Positions 4,117 through 23,952 of a DNA stretch of 64,000 bases are shown here, piece after piece. The first letter of the stretch is position 1. Each line of letters opens with the position of its first letter. The notes beneath the pieces were generated by a model. It was not told the origin of the DNA and did not search any database. It was given only the letters and a program-made list of their open reading frames with translations. A program made the translations under genes and the position numbers. The DNA comes from Hyphomicrobiales bacterium (GTDB lineage: Bacteria > Pseudomonadota > Alphaproteobacteria > Rhizobiales > Aestuariivirgaceae): positions 1 through 64,000 of the forward strand of contig JACPNZ010000003.1 of the NCBI GenBank assembly GCA_016185245.1. Reading direction: 5' to 3'.

Positions 4117-5208
4117 GACGCGGAATGCGCCTTCACCGATCCAATCCTTGTAGCGGGCCGAAGCGGCGTCTCCGAGACGGTAGGATGAGTTGATGATGTC
4201 CTGAGAGGGAATGTAGAAGATCAGGCTCTTGGCCTTGCCGAGGGAAACGGCATAGCTAAAGGTCTTGACATTCTCCGCCAGCCACCGCGCAAGATCAGGT
4301 CCCTTTTCAACAGAGAAGGCAAGTAAACTGGAGAAATTGGCCATCTGTCGTTTGGCAAGATCATGCTGCGGATGCGACGGCAAGCCGGGCCAAAAAACTC
4401 TTTTGACCTTTGGGTGGTTCTGGAGGAATTCCGCCACGGCCCGGGCGTTGCGTTCGTGAACTGCCATGCGGGCATCAAGCGTTTCAATGCCGCGCAAGAT
4501 GAGCCAGGCTGAAACGGGTGACAAGCATGCGCCATGATGGATCAAGGCTTCCCGTCTGATCGAAGCAAGCGCATCGGCCTTGCCCACAATTCCACCGGCT
4601 ATGGCATCGCCGTGGCCGCAGAGATATTTGCTCAGGGAGTGCACAACATAGTCAGCGCCCAGCGACAGGGGTTGGGTAGCCACAGGCGTGGCAATGGTTG
4701 AGTCGATTGAAAGCTTGGCGCTGCAGCCCGTGGCGATTCTGGATATCGCCTCAATGTCAGCCAGCCGCAAAATCGGGTTGCCAGGTGTTTCAACATGGAT
4801 GAGTTTCGTTTGAGGACGAACAGCAGCGGCTATTTCAGCGAGGTTGGATGTGTCGACTGCGGAAACTGCGATGCCATATTTGGGCAGGATGTCGTGCACC
4901 AGTTCAGCCACACCGGCATAGCAAACATCCGACAAAATGAGATGGTCGCCGTTAGACAAATGCGTGAGAAACAGCGCGGAAATGGCCGCCATGCCGCTTG
5001 CGAAGCAGAGGCCCGCCTCGCCGCCCTCAAGTTCGGCCAACTTGTCTTCAAGGGCGGCAACGGTGGGGTTGCTCCAGCGCGTGTAGAAATGCGGCGCATC
5101 CAGCTGCAGGTCGTTGGCCGAAAAACCAATGGCATCGGGGTGGGCTTTGAAACTTGTTGAGGTGACGATGTCGGGCGAAACAGGACGGGTGGCATTGTGT
5201 TTCGTCAT
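4051..5208 (-). CDS. Cys/Met-metabolism (trans-sulfuration type) PLP-dependent enzyme
   Basis: 385 residues, the normal size for the cystathionine gamma-synthase / beta-lyase / methionine gamma-lyase fold. The PLP-anchoring lysine is about K194 in HSLSKYLCGHGDAIAGG, preceded by D169 (LSIDST) which would contact the pyridine nitrogen; the YTRWSNPT motif near 42-49 fits the family. Substrate cannot be read from sequence. It is the last gene of the minus-strand unit starting at 8855, 173 bases after the class I/II aminotransferase. A sulfur amino acid or another beta/gamma-substituted amino acid is a reasonable guess, given the nearby amine-catabolism genes. Confidence 0.85.
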   Translation of the reverse strand: MTKHNATRPVSPDIVTSTSFKAHPDAIGFSANDLQLDAPHFYTRWSNPTVAALEDKLAELEGGEAGLCFASGMAAISALFLTHLSNGDHLILSDVCYAGVAELVHDILPKYGIAVSAVDTSNLAEIAAAVRPQTKLIHVETPGNPILRLADIEAISRIATGCSAKLSIDSTIATPVATQPLSLGADYVVHSLSKYLCGHGDAIAGGIVGKADALASIRREALIHHGACLSPVSAWLILRGIETLDARMAVHERNARAVAEFLQNHPKVKRVFWPGLPSHPQHDLAKRQMANFSSLLAFSVEKGPDLARWLAENVKTFSYAVSLGKAKSLIFYIPSQDIINSSYRLGDAASARYKDWIGEGAFRVSIGLEDPKLLISELEAALENV

Positions 5209-7472: not shown

Positions 7473-8855
7473 TCACTTCGCCAGTTCGTCCATCACCTGT
7501 CTCGTCGCCTGGTAGGCAATCTCGACTATCTCATCAATGTCGGATTCCGACACGATGAGGGGCGGCGCAAATCCGAGAATGTCACCATGCGGCATGGCGC
7601 GGGCAATAAGTCCCCTGTCACGGGCGGCCTTCGAAATGCGCGGGCCTACCTTGAGCTGTGGATCAAAGCGGCGCTTGGTGTTGCGGTCGGCCACGAATTC
7701 CACAGCGCCGAGCAACCCGACGCCTCTGACCTCACCTACTATCTCGAGCTGGGCAAATTTTTCTTTCAGGCGCATTTGGAAATACGCACCCACAGTACGC
7801 GCCCGCTCTGCTAGTTTTTCCTTCTCAACGATGTCCAGAACGGCATTGGCTGCGGCCGCCGAAATAGGGTGGCCAGTATAAGTATAACCGTGTGAAAACG
7901 GGCCTACGCGTTCTGCTGCCTCTTCCATGATTGCGTGAACCCTTTCACCGATAATTACGCCTGAAAGAGGGGCGTAGCCGGCCGTCAACCCCTTTGCGAC
8001 GGTGACGAGATCAGGCTCCATTCCATACATGGTGCTGCCGAAATCCGCGCCTGTGCGCCCGAACCCGCAGACCACCTCGTCGGCAATCAGCAGCACGTCA
8101 TAGCGCTTGAGGACACTTTGAATATCGCGCCAGTAGTTCGCGGGAGGCGGAATGATTCCGCCGGTGCCCAAAACCGGCTCGCCAATGAATGCGCCGATGG
8201 TTTCAGGCCCTTCACGCAGGATGAGTTGTTCAAGTTCGTCAGCCCGCCGGCGGGAAAACACTTCTTCGGTTTCTCCCGGTTCGGAGCCCCAGTAGTGATG
8301 GGGCGCGCCTGTGTGTAAGACCTGCGATACCGGAAGATCCATGTTGTCATGGTAATAGGACATGCCTGTCATGGAGCCCGCAATGACGGAGCTTCCATGG
8401 AAGCCCCGCTGACGCGAAATAATTTTCTTCTTTTTGGGCTGGCCGCGAAGATTGTTGTAGTACCAAACAAGTTTGGCTTGTGTCTCGTTCGCATCTGAAC
8501 CTGAGAGACCATAGAACACCCGCCTTGGCTTTCCGGGTGCCATGCGCACCAGGCGATCGGACAAAATGGCCAGAGGCTCTGAGGTGTGTGCCGCGAATGT
8601 GTGATAGTAGGCAAGCTTATAGGCCTGCCGGGCAATAGCTTCAGCGACCTCAGTACGCCCATAACCGATGTTCACACAGTAAAGGCCGGCAAACCCGTCT
8701 ATCAGGCTGCGGCCCTGCATGTCTTGAATGCGGATTCCGTCGCCAGCCGATATGATCGTTGGGTCAATTTTCCCGCTGGCGTAGTCTTTAAGGTGCGTGG
8801 CGGGGTGGAGAACGCTGGCGCGATCGAGCATGGCAATCGATGACGCATCATTCAT
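7473..8855 (-). CDS. Class III omega-aminotransferase (putrescine/diamine-pyruvate type)
   Basis: 460 residues, standard for subgroup II/III aminotransferases such as SpuC-type putrescine-pyruvate and beta-alanine-pyruvate enzymes. GLSGSDANETQAK (about 116-128) is the PLP phosphate region, ADEVVCGFGRTG supplies the ring-contacting Asp (D259), and K288 in TVAKGLTAGYAPL is the Schiff-base lysine. It would remove a terminal amino group from an amine, making an aminoaldehyde for the aldehyde dehydrogenase at 14228-15742. It is first in the minus-strand unit 8855-4051, divergent from the XRE-cupin regulator, with a candidate operator upstream at 8918-8930. Confidence 0.85.
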   Translation of the reverse strand: MNDASSIAMLDRASVLHPATHLKDYASGKIDPTIISAGDGIRIQDMQGRSLIDGFAGLYCVNIGYGRTEVAEAIARQAYKLAYYHTFAAHTSEPLAILSDRLVRMAPGKPRRVFYGLSGSDANETQAKLVWYYNNLRGQPKKKKIISRQRGFHGSSVIAGSMTGMSYYHDNMDLPVSQVLHTGAPHHYWGSEPGETEEVFSRRRADELEQLILREGPETIGAFIGEPVLGTGGIIPPPANYWRDIQSVLKRYDVLLIADEVVCGFGRTGADFGSTMYGMEPDLVTVAKGLTAGYAPLSGVIIGERVHAIMEEAAERVGPFSHGYTYTGHPISAAAANAVLDIVEKEKLAERARTVGAYFQMRLKEKFAQLEIVGEVRGVGLLGAVEFVADRNTKRRFDPQLKVGPRISKAARDRGLIARAMPHGDILGFAPPLIVSESDIDEIVEIAYQATRQVMDELAK

Positions 8856-8930: not shown

Positions 8931-9090
8931 TGATAATATACTTTGGAAGAGTCTATTTTGGTGGATTTTGTCTTCTATCGGTGACATAGGCTGGCGCGTG
9001 CGTTCAGACGCAAAACTGGCGGCGCAAAAAATTCTGACTTAAGAAAGCAGTGATGGAAGCAAACTAGGAGTGACCAGAAGGTGATTCGAA

Positions 9091-16119: not shown

Positions 16120-16225
16120 GCTGTCTTACCGCTCCCGATATGCTCCGTTAGCGGAGCACATGCTCTTGCTCTCTTTTGTGTCCCGAGCCTGACTGCTCCC
16201 GCACTGATCAAGAGAAGGAGCATCC

Positions 16226-16474
16226 ATGGCCCACAGACCGCATCCCGCAGACCTCGCCCAGGCGGCGATCATTCGCAGCGCGATCCGCTACGACGTGGCT
16301 CTCTTTCTCGGCGTCGGCCGCTTTGCGCACGGCACGGCCTCAACTCTTGCCGTGGCCCGCGTCGAGGCGCGCCGCATCAAGGCGGAACACCCCGGCAACA
16401 TCCGCAAGCCGATGATCTACGCCATCGACGCCGACGGTCGCTCGGCCTTCGTCGCCGATCACTTCCAACCATGA
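16226..16474 (+). CDS. Small hypothetical protein of the integrative module
   Basis: 82 residues from ATG 16226, preceded by GAAGGAG at a good ribosome-site distance. The sequence is mixed alpha/beta with no membrane segment and no motif I recognise. It is followed within 15 bases by the next small gene on the same strand, so three small genes (16226-17276) look like one transcript. Function unknown; accessory-element cargo is likely from the context. Confidence 0.55.
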   Translation: MAHRPHPADLAQAAIIRSAIRYDVALFLGVGRFAHGTASTLAVARVEARRIKAEHPGNIRKPMIYAIDADGRSAFVADHFQP

Positions 16475-16488
16475 AAGGAGTTTGCGAA

Positions 16489-17010
16489 ATGAAGACCTAC
16501 GTGAAGAAATTCGACGCCCAGCGGGCGGCGCGCGTCGAACTGGGCGATGACGCCATCGAGGGGATCGACTATCGATCCGTCAAGACCAGTGCCGGATGGA
16601 CATGGGAGCAAGGAAGAAGGCCCGCCTTTGCGGAGCCCGAAAGAAATGCTGATGACGCACCCACGGGCGAACCCGATAGCGTCCTAATCAGCGACCTCAA
16701 GCCCGAAACCGATCCCGCTGCCGCCGCCAATGCCGCTAGCTGGAATTCCATTTCGGCGATCAAGCGCGCGGGCAAGCGTAACGCCATCGAGGAATGCGCC
16801 CGCAATGGCAAGCTGCCGGAGCCGCCGGATTTCAGCGCGGAGACTCACAAGCGTTTCCGCAACAAGCTCACCCGTCTGGTCGAAATGGCGAAGGCAAGCG
16901 ATGTAACCGGGCTCAAGGCAATCGAGATAAATCCTGTTTCGTCCAGCCCGAAGGCCATGGCGCGGTACCGCGATCTTGCTATCATCGCACTGGAGGCACG
17001 GCGTCCATGA
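16489..17010 (+). CDS. Hypothetical protein of the integrative module
   Basis: 173 residues from ATG 16489, chosen because AAAGGAG lies eight bases upstream; an in-frame ATG at 16471 would place that ribosome site inside the gene. It is polar and highly charged, with an acidic and alanine-rich middle and a basic C-terminal half (KRFRNKLTRLVEMAKASDV). There is no signal peptide or membrane span. Its TGA overlaps the next start (ATGA). I do not recognise the family; the C-terminal charge pattern would allow nucleic-acid contact, but this is speculation. Confidence 0.6.
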   Translation: MKTYVKKFDAQRAARVELGDDAIEGIDYRSVKTSAGWTWEQGRRPAFAEPERNADDAPTGEPDSVLISDLKPETDPAAAANAASWNSISAIKRAGKRNAIEECARNGKLPEPPDFSAETHKRFRNKLTRLVEMAKASDVTGLKAIEINPVSSSPKAMARYRDLAIIALEARRP

Positions 17011-17276
17011 TTCCCGCTGAGCAGTTTATGGTCATTGTCGGCCGGAACCGAGTCCCCGCCGCGTCAATCAGGGAAGCTTCGTTGCTGTTTCGAGTGGCGC
17101 GCGACCACTTTGGTGAGGGTGGGAGCACTACGCCGGTTCCCGAGATCGCCGACGCCCATGGGAATGTCTTCGCGCATATCTCCTACAATGGCCGTGTCTG
17201 GCAGGGAGCCAAGGGGTCTTGGACAGCGGACAGCGCGTTGCTCTATGATCCGTTGGTCGACCCCGAGATGGTCTAG
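17007..17276 (+). CDS. Small hypothetical protein, translationally coupled to the upstream gene
   Basis: 89 residues starting at the ATG that overlaps the preceding stop by four bases. It contains a compact beta-rich segment (GNVFAHISYNGRVWQG) and ends PEMV. No motif, signal or membrane segment is recognisable. The ATGA overlap implies equal production with the upstream protein and perhaps a joint function. Confidence 0.6.
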   Translation: MIPAEQFMVIVGRNRVPAASIREASLLFRVARDHFGEGGSTTPVPEIADAHGNVFAHISYNGRVWQGAKGSWTADSALLYDPLVDPEMV

Positions 17277-17757
17277 GGCCGCGCTGGCCCGGTGACGTTC
17301 CAAAAAACCACGCGGCCCGGCCCTTTCCGGGCCGCGCATAACTCCCAAGCCTTCGCATCGTTGTGAGGATCGGATGGAAATGGCGCCTGAACCCACGCTT
17401 CGCGCCCGAACGGCTGCGGATAGATGAAAACCTCGGCGCCAGCGACATCGGACGGCGCAAGATCGCGACCGACCTGAACGACGCAGTGCCTTGCACGCGG
17501 CCAGGCCTGCGCCAGAGCGCGAGCGAGCCCCCCAATCCGGCAGCGCACAAGACCTCGTTAGGCTCGATACCAGTGGCGAGGGCGGCTCGCGCAATTTTCT
17601 CGATGGCTTCCGGCATGTCGACGCCGAACGGCACGAAGTTGGCGCCTGTCCTGGCGCAGTAGTCCCGTGCACGAGCCTGGATGACCGACCGATAGCCGGC
17701 CCCGACGCTCACCAACTTGGCGCCCAGGCGCGCTGCTTCGAGTGTGCGGGCATGGAG
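17273..17757 (-). pseudogene. PLP-dependent-enzyme-like gene, 5'-truncated and frameshifted
   Basis: Two minus-strand frames join into one protein. 17540-17757 gives ARTLEAARLGAKLVSVGAGY, then FVPFGVDMPEAIEKIARAAL and a CAAG glycine-rich turn. 17273-17548 continues ARALAQAWPRARHCVVQVGR and ends with FPSDPHNDAKAWELC and VVFWNVTGPA. The frame changes near 17540. The pattern resembles a phage- or plasmid-borne pyridoxal-phosphate-dependent (tryptophan-synthase-beta-fold) protein. Its N-terminal half, including the PLP lysine, is missing, so it should be inactive. The family call is tentative. Confidence 0.5.
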
Positions 17758-17929
17758 TCAGGCGCACTTCACCACGAAGATCGTGGCATGCCTACTGAAC
17801 ACTGCACCGAATTAGAGGTTTTGGTATCCCATGGCACCTTCCGTCCGATCCACATTCAGACCATCCGACCAGGGGCCGCCCCAGCTCGCAGGGGAACGGA
17901 GGCCGCCGTATGCGCTCGATTGCGCGGGG

Positions 17930-18113
17930 TGCGCAACCGAAGTGCGAACTCCTGCGAACCTGTGAACCCCAAAGAGCGCATCTGTTGCGCAAGCAGGGTG
18001 CGCACCGCACCATTCGCCGGAACCTTATAAAATCAATGGTTTATGAGAATATCGTAAACCAGCCTAGCCTAAGTGGTGTTGCGCACCCGATGGTGCGCAA
18101 CTCGGGGTGCGCA
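17930..18113. repeat. Site A: palindromic TGCGCA repeats flanking an AT-rich core
   Basis: TGCGCA occurs at 17930, 17986, 17999, 18080, 18094 and 18108, mostly as GTGCGCAAC or GTGCGCACC, with two TGCGAAC variants at 17943 and 17953. The copies form two groups of three around an AT-rich centre that contains AATCAATGGTTTATGAGA (18031-18048). The gap 17758-18230 holds no convincing gene. The layout parallels sites B and C, which have the same core but other flanking repeats. Function unknown; iterons, operators or a replication or transfer site are possible. Confidence 0.65.
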
Positions 18114-18230
18114 CCCCGATTTTTGCTCTACCGGTAGGATTTGATCGCCCCTTTGCCGCCCGCATATGTCGGCCGCCGGAAAGAACCTAAGGCCGGGGGG
18201 CCCACAGCACTGCGGCGGGCACCTGCGCCA

Positions 18231-18695
18231 TCAGCGACCCTCAAGCCGCCCCAGCATCGGCAATGCCCAGCCACATATGTCGATTTTTGCGAACTGGTAC
18301 AGCGCGTTCACGAGATCGGCTGGGGAGTGAAAGCCCGCTGCGATGAAGGTGCCGAACACGGCCTCCGGCGTGTATTCCGGGTGTCGGAGCCAGGCCACGT
18401 CGCAGTTGCCGACCACGCAGTTCCAGCGCTGCGAATAATACTCCTCCGTGTATATCTCCTTGGGCTGATCGGTTGTCGAAACCCAGACGTCGGTAACTCG
18501 CTGGGTCTCCCGATGAGACGACCAAAAGATGCGGGCCGAGCTTGCCCTAATCCCGTCGCCGCTTCCGTGTGGGCCCTTGCCCTTCCGGGTGGATGACTTT
18601 CGCGGCGCGGTCGAGCGCCGCGGAAGTTCATCAGGGGTATAAGGGGACACAACGTTCCGCACGACCTCCGCAGGAATATCAAAGACTTGCATCAT
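18231..18695 (-). CDS. Hypothetical protein between two repeat sites
   Basis: 154 residues from ATG 18695. The N-terminal third is basic (R/K/S-rich, about 24-47). The C-terminal part is more hydrophobic and aromatic (YSQRWNCVVGNCDVAWLRHPEYTPEAVFG, with cysteines near 93 and 98). No known motif, signal or membrane span is seen. It lies downstream of the primase-helicase on the same strand, with repeat site B in the 93-base gap and site A after its stop. A role linked to replication of the element is possible but unsupported by motif. Confidence 0.5.
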   Translation of the reverse strand: MMQVFDIPAEVVRNVVSPYTPDELPRRSTAPRKSSTRKGKGPHGSGDGIRASSARIFWSSHRETQRVTDVWVSTTDQPKEIYTEEYYSQRWNCVVGNCDVAWLRHPEYTPEAVFGTFIAAGFHSPADLVNALYQFAKIDICGWALPMLGRLEGR

Positions 18696-18770
18696 AACCT
18701 CCGCAACCTCCGCACAACACCTCCGCCAATGATTTCAATGGCTTATCGGTGAACCTCCGCAAACCTCCGC
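18664..18770. repeat. Site B: direct ACCTCCGC repeats flanking the shared core
   Basis: ACCTCCGC occurs in the same orientation at 18664, 18697, 18706, 18719, 18753 and 18763. Between the fourth and fifth copies lies ATTTCAATGGCTTATCGGT (18732-18750), the same core as in sites A and C. Spacings are irregular (9-34 bases), unlike CRISPR. The array lies between the primase-helicase stop and the start of the 154-residue gene, so it could be a promoter-operator or an iteron-type origin. Confidence 0.65.
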
Positions 18771-18788
18771 GGCATTTCTTCGAACCTC

Positions 18789-20975
18789 TCAGCCGGGCCA
18801 TGCCAACACCTTGAGGCCATGGGCTTTCGAGTGGCTGTCATAAGGAAGCGATCCGACCATCCCATTGGCGATCCACTCGCGCAGCAGGTGACGCGCCGCT
18901 CGCGGGCTCATACCGTGGCTCTGAACCATCAGCGGCACTACATAACGCGGGCTCTGGGGCGAGGCGCTCAGTGCATTGCCCTCGCGCCAGCGCCGGTCGA
19001 TCTCCTTGAGGATTTGCACAACCACGGAGGTGCTCGGGCCCCGCTGCTCGCGATCGAAGGCGTGCGGCACCAGGACACCCACCGGCTCGCCGATCAGCCC
19101 GTAAGGCATAATGACGCCCTCGCGCTCGAACCAACGAGCCCCGCTTGGAGGTGCAAGCTTGCCCTTGGCGTCGTCGAGCCGGATGAACTTGCTGCGATCG
19201 GCGTCAGGAATGCCGAGACCCTCCGCGTCGCCTGAACTCATGTCGGCCAGGGTGAACACGAAATGCGCATCGCCCACGATGGCGCCGCCGCCCCGCACGG
19301 CGAAGATATCGCCCGCCTGATGCGATGTGCCGGCCGGCGGCTTCCGCGTATGGTGGACAAGATGGAGGGCACAATTGGCGGCAACGCTGATCTCGCGCAG
19401 CGCCATCATGACCTGGCCAATTTCGCTATTGAGGTTCTCGGATACGGTGTGAAGCTGCACGAAGGGATCGAGTACCAGAAGGTCGATTTGTGCCTGGCGC
19501 AGGAATTCCGACAGTTGGCCGACACGCACATCGACGATGACCGTTTCATTCGGTCCACGGCGCGCGACTACGAACTTTTCGGCATCGACGCCGCTGTGGA
19601 GATATAGTGTCTCTGCGATCGACGGGAACGGCACCGCGAAACGGACGCAAGTGGCTTCGATCCGGCGCTCGAGTTCGTCTCGGGTTTCCTCATTGTTGAT
19701 GAGCGCGACCTTCCTCGGCCGGTCGATGCCGAACTCCAGGAAATCCATGCCGCTTGCGAGGGATACGGCTTCCTCTACGGAGAGGGTGGATTTACCGACA
19801 CCGGGTGCGGCCGAGGTCACCGTCGTATGCTTGCGCATCAGGCGATGGCGAACCAGCCAGTCGCGCGGCGGCCGTTTGCAGGGATCGAGAAGGCCGACTG
19901 GGTGCAGCACGAAGGGCGAAGGACCGGCGGTTGAGATGTTATTAGCCGGGTTGGGGATTGCCCATTTCTGGCGCCCACCGGTGATCATCGCCCCGACTTC
20001 ACGCTGCGTCTGGGCGACCGTGTAGCCTGGTAACGTCAGCGCTTCGGCCACGGTGAGGATCTCGGCATCCGACCAGCCGCGCGCGATCCAGTGGCCGGTG
20101 AGGCGGATGAAATTATCGTGCCAGCGATCGCCTCGGCGAATGGCGGCCAGAACACTTTCGACCGCGAGATTGCCGATGGCGAGGGTGCCATTCTCGTGCG
20201 GGGTGCAATCCGGTGGAATGGTGGGGGAAAGTGTCGGAAAGCTCGTAGACGGTGTTTCCGCTGGGTCGGGCGCGACCGCCATGAGCGGCCCCCGCACCAG
20301 GGCGAACGCTCGCACCAGCTGCTCAAAGCAATACTGCCGCGGGCGACCGGCAACATCGGGCACATGCACCTCGGTGCGTTCGAGAACACGCCCGGCCTTG
20401 GTCGGCCAAGCCACCGATCCGCCGAGGCGGAGCACCCGGCCCGGATTGACGACCGAGGGATCACCACCGATGGCCTGTGCGATGTTGGAACAGATCACGC
20501 GTAGGACCGCTGGATCGCGGAACGGCGCATCAAGGCGCCACCACATCTGCGCCCTGACATGCGGATTCCGGCCCGTGACGACGGTCATGGTAGGCGGCGA
20601 GCCCCGCTGTTTGCATGTTGCGATCGCCGGCGCCACCACGTCGTTGTCAACGTCCGCCCAGATGCAACTTGCGGCATAAAAATCGGAGTCGGCGCCACGC
20701 TTGCGCTTCGCGGTGCCGGGCTTGCGCAGCGCCGAGCCGACATAGACATTGCAATTGCGCGTTCCATTGAGTTCGACGGCGCGCTCAATGAGTTCGCCCA
20801 GTTCATCGGTGCCGAAGAGGGCCGCAGCGGCCAAAGCGCCGGTCTTCGGGTCGCTCCAGGCAAGCTCGATCAGCCCGTCATGTGCGCCGTCGAGATCGCT
20901 ATGGAACACGTGCTCGAGTTGCCTTCGAATCGCCTCCGGATCGGGCTCAGGGATGGGAGACACGTCGCCGGTCAT
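18789..20975 (-). CDS. Primase-like / RecA-type helicase fusion protein (element replication)
   Basis: 728 residues. The N-terminal part (about 90-230) carries the acidic WADVDND motif (106-112) and a downstream TGRNPHVRAQMWWRL segment, typical of RepB/AEP-type primase domains. The C-terminal part (about 360-640) has Walker A SAAPGVGKS (388-396), a Walker B LLVLDPFV near 500 and LVHHTRKP, the arrangement of RepA/RecA-like hexameric helicases. A short winged-helix-like tail follows. The protein could prime and unwind the excised element. It is encoded divergently from the integrase side and next to repeat site B. Confidence 0.75.
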   Translation of the reverse strand: MTGDVSPIPEPDPEAIRRQLEHVFHSDLDGAHDGLIELAWSDPKTGALAAAALFGTDELGELIERAVELNGTRNCNVYVGSALRKPGTAKRKRGADSDFYAASCIWADVDNDVVAPAIATCKQRGSPPTMTVVTGRNPHVRAQMWWRLDAPFRDPAVLRVICSNIAQAIGGDPSVVNPGRVLRLGGSVAWPTKAGRVLERTEVHVPDVAGRPRQYCFEQLVRAFALVRGPLMAVAPDPAETPSTSFPTLSPTIPPDCTPHENGTLAIGNLAVESVLAAIRRGDRWHDNFIRLTGHWIARGWSDAEILTVAEALTLPGYTVAQTQREVGAMITGGRQKWAIPNPANNISTAGPSPFVLHPVGLLDPCKRPPRDWLVRHRLMRKHTTVTSAAPGVGKSTLSVEEAVSLASGMDFLEFGIDRPRKVALINNEETRDELERRIEATCVRFAVPFPSIAETLYLHSGVDAEKFVVARRGPNETVIVDVRVGQLSEFLRQAQIDLLVLDPFVQLHTVSENLNSEIGQVMMALREISVAANCALHLVHHTRKPPAGTSHQAGDIFAVRGGGAIVGDAHFVFTLADMSSGDAEGLGIPDADRSKFIRLDDAKGKLAPPSGARWFEREGVIMPYGLIGEPVGVLVPHAFDREQRGPSTSVVVQILKEIDRRWREGNALSASPQSPRYVVPLMVQSHGMSPRAARHLLREWIANGMVGSLPYDSHSKAHGLKVLAWPG

Positions 20976-21027
20976 GCTATTTTCTGAGCAGCAGAATTAT
21001 CGGCGTTGCAGTCGCGGGCGATCAAAT

Positions 21028-21297
21028 TCATTGACGATCCCGCAAGAGAAGGGCCACGCCGCACTCGACGAGGTCGTCGATGGTATCGAGAAATTCGATG
21101 TCCGAGTCGTGGAAAGTAACGCCGAGCCTCCCTTCGACATCGGCGATGAGAGAGAACCATTCGTCCACACCCCGGTCCCACAGCCGGTCGTCTGGGGCAG
21201 GCGGCTCTCCGAAGTGTTGGGCATAGGCAAGATGGATCATATTTGAGACGCGAGCTAAGGTCACCTGGCAGTGCGCGATCAAGAGCGGCGGGTTCAT
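21028..21297 (-). CDS. Small hypothetical acidic protein downstream of the alpA-like gene
   Basis: 89 residues from ATG 21297, which overlaps the ancestral alpA stop (ATGA). The frame can be read continuously from 21546, but the upstream part is frameshifted alpA sequence, so I start here. It is acidic, with WFSLIADVEGRLGVTFHDSDIEFLDTIDDLVECGVALLL suggesting amphipathic helices. No motif is recognisable. It lies 52 bases before the primase-helicase start on the same strand, hence probably co-transcribed. Function unknown. Confidence 0.5.
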   Translation of the reverse strand: MNPPLLIAHCQVTLARVSNMIHLAYAQHFGEPPAPDDRLWDRGVDEWFSLIADVEGRLGVTFHDSDIEFLDTIDDLVECGVALLLRDRQ

Positions 21298-21546
21298 CTC
21301 GCGCCTCCGCCGCGTATCTTCGGAGACAGACCAGGGTGCTCGCGTCCGGCCAGCTAGCCGCGAAAGGCATCGGCCCAGCAGAACACCTTGCGGCCCCACG
21401 CGGACACAAGGCGGGACGATCCGTTGGGTCTCCCAGCGGGCTAGAGTGCCCGTGGAGACGCCGATCTCGGCGGCAACTTCAATCCTCGATAGCCAGCCAT
21501 CCAGGAGCGGGAAGTTCCGGGGTTCGGCGTCGGCAATACTGTCCAT
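21294..21546 (-). pseudogene. AlpA-like helix-turn-helix (excisionase/regulator) gene with frameshift
   Basis: From ATG 21546, GWLSRIEVAAEIGVSTGTLARWE and PPCVRVG form the MerR-like winged helix of AlpA/excisionase proteins of integrative elements. At residue 51 a run of four C (21394-21397, plus strand) carries one base too many. Removing one base restores RKVFCWADAFRG, the usual wing and C-terminal helix, but a TAG at 21354-21356 then interrupts it before the ancestral TGA at 21294-21296. The recognition helices remain, so a short DNA-binding product is conceivable, but the gene is damaged. Divergent from the integrase. Confidence 0.6.
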
Positions 21547-21614
21547 TTGATCCCCCGCCTAAGCGTGAAAGTCACGTCGCGTTTATGTCAGCACAGGAGG
21601 GTGCGATCCGGGTA

Positions 21615-21777
21615 GGCGGAAACAGGCGTAAACCCGCGTAAACACCCGTGGGAATTACGCCTATCTAACAATATCAGTGGCTTATGTGTAGAATATAAGC
21701 CTATTCGCCCTGCGGCGCACGGAATCAGGCAGGATTCGTTCCCGCCTCCTTTACGCCTGTTTCCACCTCTTTCCGCC
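21615..21777. repeat. Site C: inverted GGAAACAGGCGTAAA arms around the shared core
   Basis: GGAAACAGGCGTAAA (21618-21632) and its exact reverse complement (21750-21764) form a 15-base inverted repeat. Extra partial copies are GCGTAAAC at 21636-21643 and GGCGGAAA, which appears at 21615-21622 and inverted at 21770-21777. The centre contains ATATCAGTGGCTTATGTGT (21671-21689) followed by AT-rich DNA. This fills most of the 320-base divergent gap between the alpA-like gene and the integrase, so it could hold integrase arm sites, alpA operators or an origin. Confidence 0.7.
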
Positions 21778-21866
21778 TATGCTCGGAAATCCTTTTTGGA
21801 GCAGCTTGCTGTCCGCAAACGACTTCGCCTCAGTGATTGCGAGGCTGGTCAAGAGAAACAGGTGCG

Positions 21867-23141
21867 ATGCGTACTCATCTGACGGAACGGTTTGTCAAGT
21901 CGGCTACCCCCGCCGCTAACGGGCTATCCCCGATCCTGCGTGATACCGAAGTGACCGGCTTCGGCCTTCAGGTGCGTCCGTCTGGCAAGAAGAGCTTCAC
22001 CCTCGACTATGCGTTTGAGAGCCGAAAGCGCCGCCTATTCATCGGCGAGTATCCCGACTGGAGCGTCACAGCTGCGCGCGAAGAGGCAAAGCGCCTGAAG
22101 CGCGAGATCGATCTCGGCCGTGATCCCCTCGCCCAGCGCGATGAACGGCGAATCGCGCCAACGTTCAAGGAACTCTCATACCGCTATCTTGCCGAGTGCT
22201 CTCCACGTCTGGTGAAAGCATCCCAGCGTGACCGGCGCAACATGCTCCATAACTATGTCCTGCCCAAATGGGGGCACCGCAAGGTGGCCGACATTCGCCC
22301 CGCCGACGTCGATCAGCTTCTGGCCGAAGTCGCCAAGGGGCGGGCACGCCCCGCGAAGCAGAAAACAAAACAGAAGCGACTTAAGCCCCTGGCACCGCCA
22401 CGGCCCACCCCCATTCAGGCCAACCGGCTGGGGATGTTGATCCGCAAGATGTTCAACCTCGCGATCCGATGGGAGTGGCGAAAGGACAATCCCGCCTCGG
22501 GCTTCATCCGCAACCCGGAGCACCCGCGCGAACGGTTTCTCGATCATACTGAAATCGCCCGGCTCTCAGAGGCGCTCGCCGAACATCCCAACCAGCGTTT
22601 CGCCAACATCATCCGCATGCTCATGCTGACGGGCGCACGGCGGGGCGAGGTTCTCAACGCGCGGTGGGAGCAGTTCGATCTCGAACGTGCCGTATGGACG
22701 AAGCCCGCCGCCACCACCAAACAGAAGCGGCAGCATCGCGCTCCAATTTCGGGGGCCATGGTAGCCCTCCTCCGCTCGATCCGAACCACGCTACCACAAG
22801 ATAATCCGTGGGTGTTCCCAGGGGATGCTGAGGGCAAACCGATTCAGGAGATCAAGCGGTTTTGGGACGACATCCGCGCCAAAGCCGGTCTCGAAGATGT
22901 GCGCGCCCATGACCTCCGCCACACTTTCGCTTCGCTGCTCGTTTCCGATGGCATGACACTTCCGATGATCGGCCGCCTGCTCGGCCACACTCAAGTGCAG
23001 ACAACCCAACGTTATGCCCACCTCTATGACGATCCGCTCCGAATTGGCCTCGAGAGGATCGGTGAGGCACTTAGGCCGAAGTTGAGGCTGGTTCAGGAAA
23101 GGCCGCTCGAAAGCTTACCTATATCCAACTCAGGGGCTTAG
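21867..23141 (+). CDS. Tyrosine recombinase / site-specific integrase (P4-like)
   Basis: 424 residues from ATG 21867, where family similarity begins. There is an N-terminal arm-binding DUF4102-type domain (LRDTEVTGFGLQVRPSGKKSF, about 23-43) and a core-binding SAM-like region (100-210). The catalytic domain has R258 (TGARRGE), H348-x-x-R351 (HDLRHTF), H374 (GHTQ) and nucleophile Y383 (QRYAHL). All key residues are intact. It would integrate the island at a tRNA 3' end. It reads toward the tRNA-Arg-type scar at 23911-23952, about 770 bases away. Confidence 0.9.
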   Translation: MRTHLTERFVKSATPAANGLSPILRDTEVTGFGLQVRPSGKKSFTLDYAFESRKRRLFIGEYPDWSVTAAREEAKRLKREIDLGRDPLAQRDERRIAPTFKELSYRYLAECSPRLVKASQRDRRNMLHNYVLPKWGHRKVADIRPADVDQLLAEVAKGRARPAKQKTKQKRLKPLAPPRPTPIQANRLGMLIRKMFNLAIRWEWRKDNPASGFIRNPEHPRERFLDHTEIARLSEALAEHPNQRFANIIRMLMLTGARRGEVLNARWEQFDLERAVWTKPAATTKQKRQHRAPISGAMVALLRSIRTTLPQDNPWVFPGDAEGKPIQEIKRFWDDIRAKAGLEDVRAHDLRHTFASLLVSDGMTLPMIGRLLGHTQVQTTQRYAHLYDDPLRIGLERIGEALRPKLRLVQERPLESLPISNSGA

Positions 23142-23209: not shown

Positions 23210-23599
23210 GTGGACTTGGCGAAGAAAGTTCTGTCGGCCAACGAAGCCGCTTCGGTCACCGGTGTGCCCTTGAAACACGTGCATCGTATTGTCGATGCAG
23301 GTCTCCTAAAGAGTGCTGTGGAAAACCGCCATGGTACGCGCGTTATCATCGGAAACCGCGGCCTGAGAGGTTCGCGTATTCCGGTGCACGACATTGCCGC
23401 GATGATCGCCAACGGCGATGAGAAGTCCGCCATTATCAATGCCTACCCGCAGCTGGCCCCCGAACAGATTGATCTCGCGGTTCTCTATGCCGAAGCCTAT
23501 CCGCGACGCGGCCGGCCGCGCCGCAAACCCCTCTGGGGACGGGGTCAGCCCAAGTCGTCGGAGAAACTCGTGCTTCGCAATTTGCAGCGGGCTTCGTGA
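23210..23599 (+). CDS. DUF433-family antitoxin-like protein
   Basis: 129 residues from GTG 23210 with GGAAGG about ten bases upstream. The N-terminal half resembles a small helix-turn-helix (SANEAASVTGVPLKHVHRIVD). The C-terminal half is a DUF433 domain (GSRIPVHDIAAMIANGDEKSAIINAYPQLAPEQIDLAVLYAEAYP). Such proteins are usually antitoxins for DUF5615 PIN-like toxins. Its stop overlaps the next GTG, as expected for an operon. It is probably an addiction module of the island; because the partner is broken, the antitoxin may now be an orphan. Confidence 0.75.
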   Translation: MDLAKKVLSANEAASVTGVPLKHVHRIVDAGLLKSAVENRHGTRVIIGNRGLRGSRIPVHDIAAMIANGDEKSAIINAYPQLAPEQIDLAVLYAEAYPRRGRPRRKPLWGRGQPKSSEKLVLRNLQRAS

Positions 23600-23740
23600 A
23601 GTTCTTGGTAGATGAATGCTTGAGCCCCGCGCTCGTGGACTTGGCCCGGGCGCGGTTTGTCACCCCTATCCTCGCCAGTGTGCGGCGGTTCGCGGACGTT
23701 GATCCGGCTAAGTTAATCCGCCTACTGAATAATTGTCGGT
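23596..23740 (+). pseudogene. DUF5615 PIN-like toxin, truncated after the N-terminal strand
   Basis: GTG 23596 overlaps the antitoxin stop. The first 21 residues (MKFLVDECLSPALVDLARAR) are the classic DUF5615 start with the metal-binding Asp of LVDE. Thereafter the sequence no longer resembles the family, and the frame simply runs on through the attachment scar to 24060. Expected length is about 115-120 residues with a central VTNNxxDF motif, which is absent. Recombination with island-end DNA seems to have removed the rest. The remainder up to 23910 holds no recognisable gene. Confidence 0.65.
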
Positions 23741-23863: not shown

Positions 23864-23881
23864 TAATCAGTGCCTTATGCG
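23864..23881. repeat. Site D: shared core motif next to the attachment scar
   Basis: TAATCAGTGCCTTATGCG matches the core of sites A-C (ATCARTGGYTTATG) at all but one position. It lies 30 bases before the tRNA-derived scar. No flanking repeat arms are visible here. The position suggests a link with the end of the mobile element. Confidence 0.5.
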
Positions 23882-23910: not shown

Positions 23911-23952
23911 CGAATCTGGGGGTCATGGGTTCGAATCCTGTCGGGCGCGCCA
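23911..23952 (+). other. Attachment-site scar: 3' half of a tRNA-Arg-type gene
   Basis: The 42 bases from the anticodon loop to CCA are tRNA-like: TCTGG anticodon-stem strand, GGGTC variable loop, T-arm ATGGG-TTCGAAT-CCTGT, acceptor strand CGGGCGC, then G and CCA. Upstream bases cannot pair with the anticodon stem and no D-arm exists, so this is not a functional tRNA. Such fragments are left when a tyrosine integrase inserts an element into a tRNA gene. The implied intact gene begins GCGCCCG and should lie at the other end of the island, outside the window. Confidence 0.75.

Follow-up and report, generated by a model that had tools for sequence, protein, structure and literature searches.

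The window, i.e. the whole 64-kb stretch of DNA that we have analysed, contains an element that encodes, on the minus strand, a primase-helicase of 728 aa (18789..20975, with its C-terminal domain encoded at approximately 18792–19058), a 154-aa open reading frame (18231..18695) and a 172-aa protein (21028..21546), the last with weak helix-turn-helix matches below the Pfam cut-offs and a weak match to a PHROG excisionase/regulator. On the plus strand, a tyrosine integrase is encoded (21837..23141; Phage_integrase and Arm-DNA-bind_3), followed by an attachment scar (23927..23952) that resembles a tRNA 3' end in its sequence; a search of the assembly for a second exact copy of the scar, which would mark where the element stops on its far side, found none. 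Positions 23210–23720 of the window hold a DUF433 protein and then the start, at 23596, of an open reading frame that resembles a cut PIN-type toxin partner.

The gene order of the element fits the layout of the PICI satellites (int, AlpA-like regulator, pri-rep, ori). The comparison of nine proteins of the relative L027 with the window has revealed two of them as broken pieces only, PALP-like and orf234-like (17276–17811 and 16140–17001), while the other seven, including ParB, the methylase, DUF6362 and the gene after site B, have no match in the window. We favour a decayed prophage because of these broken pieces of phage genes and the phage synteny of the relatives; this suggests that the control sites of the element have outlived its genes.

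The cores of sites A to D

A preliminary description of this DNA had proposed that a common core, always in the same orientation, is embedded at three intergenic sites in three different frames of short repeats. The three frames are indeed different: site A (17928..18115) has four copies of a 10-nt GGTGCGCAAC/CC unit that flank an AT-rich centre, site B (18664..18770, plus strand) has direct repeats of ACCTCCGCA, and site C (21613..21779), located between the helix-turn-helix and integrase genes, has inverted GGCGGAAAC-type repeats that form a 30-nt pair with 83% complementarity (21613–21642 and 21750–21779). The cores are all on the plus strand, as was claimed, but they are not identical: in the 64-kb window, the 14-nt sequence ATCARTGGYTTATG occurs exactly at 18032 (A) and 21673 (C) only, while B (18734) differs from it by two mismatches and the fourth core, D (23866), by one; the start positions originally given were 1–2 nt too low. 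At B, the proposed core near 18734 is present, but a better one, TATCAAAGACTTG at 18677, had been overlooked.

When up to three mismatches are allowed, the 14-mer has 11 matches in the window, where 7.5 are expected and 12 of 100 shuffles reach 11, i.e. it is near chance. The genome of the element has two exact copies, both within the window, and an exact copy is present in seven of the 69 family genomes searched (reversed control: one of 69). None of the six exact copies outside the element's own genome is framed like A or B: the commonest 7-mer within 130 nt of the core has two to three copies at these six, compared with four at A, six at B, two at C (the inverted repeats) and one at D. The 14-mer was therefore rejected as a marker of the family.

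The shared centre of A, B and C is better described by WATCAANNNNTTR, which the consulted part of PMC8942017 gives as the consensus of IHF. This consensus occurs exactly at 18031 (A, AATCAATGGTTTA, 18031..18043) and 18677 (B) and nowhere else in the 64 kb (two matches against 0.56 expected; 13 of 100 shuffles reach two), while the second site of B and the cores of C (TATCAGTGGCTTA, 21672..21684) and D (AATCAGTGCCTTA, 23865..23877) each have one mismatch to it. A looser pattern, WATCARNNNNTTR, has four matches in the 64 kb, all on the plus strand, namely A, B, C (21672) and D (23865), against 1.3 expected, with 5 of 100 shuffles reaching four; the pattern was loosened after C and D were known, and therefore serves as a description and not as a test. 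Taken by itself, the window has a modest excess of IHF-like matches; chance is left far behind at B once its homologues are counted. A search of the element's own genome with the IHF-alpha model found a homologue above the model cut-off (125.6 bits); the genome has three more, weaker DNABII-like matches. Overall, the cores look like predicted IHF sites.

Site B, its iterons and the primase-helicase

Site B lies directly 3' of the primase-helicase gene, a position that is kept in the relatives. Its six ACCTCCGC units (starting at 18664, 18697, 18706, 18719, 18753 and 18763) are arranged around two AT-rich IHF-like sites in the order one unit, IHF, three units, IHF, two units, with no single centre; the first of these sites, missed in the preliminary description, is TATCAAAGACTTG (18677..18689, plus strand), an exact match to the consensus, and the second, previously taken as the core of B, is TTTCAATGGCTTA (18733..18745, plus strand), located 56 nt from the first and with one mismatch. 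On one side, B is overlapped by the 5' end of the 154-aa open reading frame, whose product has a full-length relative in L032 (59%), N-terminal pieces only in L027, L031 and L037, no match in plasmids and no relative in the viral scan. B is also adjoined by a strong hairpin (18592..18632; z -5.0, with none of 200 shuffles folding as well), next to which the motif GGGGTATAAGGGG is located (18634..18646, plus strand); some form of this G-run motif occurs in 21 of the 51 B regions compared below, and the hairpin may be a general part of such origins. The hairpin together with GGGGTATAAGGGG (18592–18646) is possibly a candidate priming site.

The 728-aa protein has a Pfam match to AAA_25 and a profile match to RSF1010 RepA (1g8y; E 4.9e-29, residues 372–615 of the profile). 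The structure predicted for it has a moderate quality (mean pLDDT 68.5, pTM 0.38) and matches PrimPol, RSF1010 RepA and RSF1010 RepB'; that the primase part is N-terminal is a placement that we infer, because the table of model matches gives no ranges. From residue 651 onwards, the model has a pLDDT of 78–90 per ten-residue block, with three helices and two strands, a predicted secondary structure that we read as a putative winged helix.

A single-protein search of genome contigs found no relatives of the primase-helicase, while an alignment-based profile search of these contigs found 10 loci, of which the named ones are mostly from Alphaproteobacteria. Together with 67 viral loci, L013, the plasmid L094 and the window itself, these make up 80 sources, 77 of which have a usable downstream region; after those with at least 90% protein identity were dropped, 51 regions were kept, the window included. 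We counted IHF-like sites in the last 230 nt before the 3' end of the gene, in the orientation of the window, and compared the counts with 200 dinucleotide shuffles. The 51 regions have 67 IHF-like sites on the strand of the core (21 exact and 46 with one mismatch) versus five on the other strand, while the shuffled regions have 2.3 on average and eight at most; at least one site is present in 39 regions and at least two in 27. The distances between the sites fall on a few values: 56 nt (12 cases), 67 nt (five), 57 nt (three), 68 nt (three) and five single values. There are 12 of the 51 regions that have no IHF-like site on the core strand, among them the GTCCACA-type regions L050 and L058 and the plasmid L094.

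A motif search that makes no use of the consensus (two sites per region, six runs) returned AATGAWWTCAATGRSTTR in its best-scoring run; the motif was found in four runs, and the other two landed on the repeats. The information is concentrated at TCAA and TT (1.18–1.38 bits), with 0.36–0.74 bits in the spacer, and because of this result we regard the constant part of B as an IHF-like frame. About half of the B sites have a T at position 2, where the consensus of E. coli has an A, TG is preferred at the start of the spacer, and an AATGA flank is conserved; the constraint on the spacer and the flank counts against a pure IHF reading, so that another protein may be involved.

The repeats that surround this frame were assessed by the commonest 7-mer in the 170 nt beside the gene, compared with 60 shuffles. 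They exceed all 60 shuffles in 44 of the 51 regions; among the remaining seven, L027 and L034 have repeats that are too variable for an exact count, and five show none. The units differ from phage to phage: ACCTCCG, ACTTCCG, TCTCCGC, CTTCGCC, AAGTTTC, GGTTCCG, CCTTGCA, GTCCACA, GTGCCAC and others. In L050, L056, L058, L100 and L102, where the units are GTCCACA, GTGCCAC, CGCACAC or GAAACAC, the C-terminal end of the protein looks different, and IHF-like sites on the usual strand are absent from four of these five, L100 being the exception.

The unit type varies together with the C-terminal domain of the primase-helicase. Using 50 regions, 49 of which have a comparable C-terminal domain (1176 pairs; 2000 label permutations), the partial rank correlation between unit similarity and the identity of the C-terminal domain, given the rest of the protein, is 0.44 (reached in none of 2000 permutations), while that between unit similarity and the rest of the protein, given the C-terminal domain, is 0.08 (227 of 2000), i.e. 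there is no clear link. Taken in windows of 50 residues, the partial correlation amounts to 0.42 at residues 681–730, 0.37 at 641–690 and 0.29 at 601–650; it is also 0.29 at 401–450, so that the covariation is not limited to the last domain. In 78 pairs, the rest of the protein is 65% or more identical; of these, the 21 pairs with like units have a mean identity of 79% in the C-terminal domain, compared with 44% in the 49 pairs with unlike units; eight pairs are intermediate. As a control, the gene that borders B opposite the primase-helicase was compared in 46 regions (990 pairs), and it does not track the iteron units: its rank coefficient is -0.11, against 0.44 for the C-terminal domain and 0.19 for the rest of the primase-helicase. 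Linkage alone is thereby weakened as the source of the covariation.

Pairs of otherwise similar loci show where the sequences part. L052, a viral contig, and L103, from a Methylocystis MAG, are 80–100% identical per 60 columns over the first 1.86 kb of the gene; their identity falls to 25–67% from about 7861 to 8458 and then returns to 85–98%, with one dip to 60% near 9059. The divergent stretch holds the C-terminal domain (the gene ends at 8208) and the iterons (8222–8327), and reaches approximately the opening codons of the gene that follows (whose first match, from its residue 19, is at 8447). Both alleles have the IHF-like pair, with sites that are 56 and 68 nt apart. The same cut is seen when L052 is compared with L057, while the control pair L052/L090, which has like units, is at least 85% identical throughout, except for the first window. 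L064 and L068, with unlike units, show 50–75% identity over the domain and the repeats and about 70–90% elsewhere; they make a weak case for exchange, because the dip is shallow and another one occurs at 4621–4681. We read the difference between L052 and L103 as a probable swap of the domain together with its cognate origin; the control with the neighbouring gene argues for function behind such exchange, though linkage alone could yield it.

Sites A, C and D

Site A is read as a set of putative cosB-like repeats, next to a cosN-like block, TAGGTTCTT...ATATGCGGGCGGC (18143..18189, minus strand). In the relatives, the repeats are located between a DUF6362 gene and a ParB-like gene; at least three TGCGCAC- or TGCGAAC-type words are present in 19 of 26 distinct gaps, and the block ATGCGGG[CG]GG in 22 of the 26, while L036, L042 and L045, where the gap is longer than 1.5 kb, have neither. 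The genome of the Rhodobacter phage RcBaka has the ParB-like gene as its first gene and the DUF6362 relative as its last, and its joined ends (right and left) align with the block: TAGGTTCTT...CTATG followed by CGGGGCGG in RcBaka corresponds to ...ATATG followed by CGGGCGGC in the window. The alignment is alike in 17 of the 18 relatives displayed; the copy in L033 failed to align. Phages of the RcC cluster, to which RcBaka belongs, have ends with 11-base 5' overhangs, according to the section of PMC8601537 that deals with them. Because the block aligns with the RcBaka ends, A is most likely a cos site, by homology to physical phage ends.

An IHF-like site within the A repeats is found in L061 only, among the 26 distinct relatives (the IHF-like matches of L028, L042 and L045 are elsewhere in the gap, outside the repeats); IHF at A was therefore rejected as a general feature, being absent within the repeats of the other 25. 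At bases 45–90 of RcBaka (L115, MW677509.1), just inside the left end of the genome, there are three TTTCCACTT repeats, at a position that matches the A repeats; it is possible that these are terminase sites with a different unit.

Site C is read as the operator region of the regulator gene. Of 17 regions upstream of this gene, 15 have two or more words of the GGCGGAAA type, and the 17 C regions together have 11 IHF-like matches on the core strand and two on the other, against 1.3 in shuffles, none of 200 of which reach 11. A GAACN7GAAC box is overlapped by four of the 11 matches (L033, L052, L057 and L103), and the match in L104 is uncertain, so that six of the 17 regions remain: the window, L028, L047, L054, L059 and L061. 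The GAACN7GAAC box itself, which we take to be LexA-like in Alphaproteobacteria, is present in the divergent promoter in the C regions of 14 of the 17 (e.g. L028, L034, L047, L054, L059 and L061) and absent from the window, L027 and L068. A distant BLASTN search of site C against plasmids gave no match. From its sequence, C is probably an operator with IHF.

The core of D is located 50 nt from the attachment scar, and no repeats were found in its surroundings; D is plausibly an IHF site in an attachment arm, an assignment from one case with one mismatch.

Interpretation and comparison with known systems

The reading that we consider probable is that of a decayed prophage whose cores are IHF sites; they would serve a number of phage control regions (an origin at B, a cos site at A, an operator at C and an attachment arm at D), each of which would have a sequence-specific partner of its own. 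What is observed is the match to the consensus and its enrichment, the conservation of B, the covariation and exchange of the iterons with the C-terminal domain, and the alignment of the block at A with phage ends; from these we infer all activity of the sites, be it in replication, in packaging or in the binding and bending of DNA, as well as what C and D do. At B, the C-terminal domain of the primase-helicase would bind the iterons, two phased IHF bends would give the array of iterons its fold, and the primase-helicase, which would load itself, would open and prime the DNA, perhaps at the adjoining hairpin. A would be the cos packaging site, made up of cosN and of repeats that the small terminase subunit would bind, with IHF folding these repeats much as it does in lambda cosB; C would be the operator region of the helix-turn-helix regulator, between its gene and the integrase gene, and D would supply an IHF site to the attachment arm.

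The cores could instead be bound by another protein, e.g. a lineage- or phage-specific protein of the DNABII/HU type, with the frames remaining as described. Such a protein would account for the T that about half of the B sites have at position 2, for the TG with which the spacer tends to begin and for the AATGA flank, and the three weaker DNABII-like matches in the same genome would suit it; but the positions conserved best (TCAA, with TT four bases further) agree with the IHF consensus, and an IHF-alpha homologue is encoded in the genome; we regard this explanation as unlikely. It is quite improbable that A, B and C are all operators in which IHF loops promoter DNA, with B being no origin and the covariation reflecting physical linkage only: the three sites are all upstream of leftward genes, linked stretches can swap together, and the L052/L103 stretch continues past the iterons as far as the opening codons of the gene that follows, but the units are not tracked by the gene that flanks B opposite the primase-helicase, the place of B directly 3' of the primase-helicase gene is the layout of a SaPI/PICI origin, and the alignment of the A block is with the physical ends of a phage. 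That short AT-rich intergenic matches stand beside unrelated repeats by chance would be in keeping with the modest, partly post hoc excess in the window (4 vs 1.3 and 2 vs 0.56); at the B homologues, chance is refuted by the count (67 vs 2.3), the strand bias (67 to 5) and the fixed spacing, while D, and partly A and C, could be chance matches. As an explanation of the whole, we hold chance to be very improbable.

With the cores read as IHF sites, the preliminary suggestion of a common protein with site-specific partners, or of a family of origins, fits in outline, since the core is IHF-like, the B iterons track the C-terminal domain and the A repeats are next to a cos-like site, as far as can be told from sequence comparison. 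The further idea of arms that are interchangeable across the sites is contradicted by A and C, which retain their own unit types in most of the relatives examined, only the B units varying widely; nor is it correct that no feature class describes the arrangement, as iteron origins with IHF, SaPI/PICI origins and lambda cosB were already known.

For B, the exchange leads to a more specific proposal, to which we give about even chances: origin specificity may reside in a swappable cassette of approximately 600 bp, made up of the DNA-reading C-terminal domain and its cognate iterons, on a constant scaffold of two IHF sites 56 or 67 nt apart, and swapped between the otherwise similar genomes of a large phage family whose named members are mostly from Alphaproteobacteria. 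If true, the cassette would be akin to a compatibility type, and could let related replicons coexist or evade replication parasites; its exchange suggests selection on the origin type. The many pairs of iterons and domains would then amount to a DNA-recognition code that is legible from sequence, and the co-varying iterons and C-terminal domains of dozens of phages to a natural data set on the origin choice of helicase-type initiators. More broadly, an odd shared motif would become a map, open to testing, of the sites that control these phages (origin, cos, operator and attachment arm), all of them using one host protein. Our literature search, judged by titles and the openings of abstracts and with subscription journals mostly outside its reach, found no paper that describes this origin family; as far as that search goes, the two-IHF origin frame of these phages and the exchangeable initiator-origin cassette are new.

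By analogy, B is most likely an origin of the SaPI/PICI type. In the SaPIs, the C-terminal domain of Rep recognises an iteron origin directly downstream of the rep gene (PMC7581432, relevant portion), and in the PICIs the origin is immediately 3' of the replication gene, with two iteron sets that flank an AT-rich region (PMC6092414); IHF is not named in the consulted portion of the latter account. As in those systems, so far as these excerpts describe them, the B iterons follow immediately after the 3' end of a gene for a helicase or primase-helicase and their units are element-specific; unlike them, the helicase at B is of the RSF1010 RepA type, the array includes IHF-like sites, which often form a pair 56 or 67 nt apart, and the domain and the iterons are seen exchanging together at B-type loci. 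An IHF-like site inside an iteron origin is also a feature that B shares with the plasmids pSC101, R6K and P1, whose iteron origins carry IHF sites (PMC4980987, in the part consulted); the neighbour of B is a primase-helicase fusion, unlike the Rep initiator of these plasmids, which acts with DnaA.

In lambda cosB, the IHF site I1 is located between R3 and R2 (R3-I1-R2-R1; PMC4856287, in the excerpt consulted), and A is similar to this arrangement in having a cohesive-end-like site that adjoins repeats, with an IHF-like site between them. A differs from lambda cos in the sequence of its repeats, in having them on both sides of a longer centre, and in that 25 of the 26 relatives have no IHF core within the repeats. 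The protein at B resembles those of RSF1010, with matches to RepA (by model and profile) and to RepB' (by model). RepB' and RepA are separate proteins in RSF1010, where RepC binds the iterons; here, unlike in RSF1010, there is one protein, with an added C-terminal domain.
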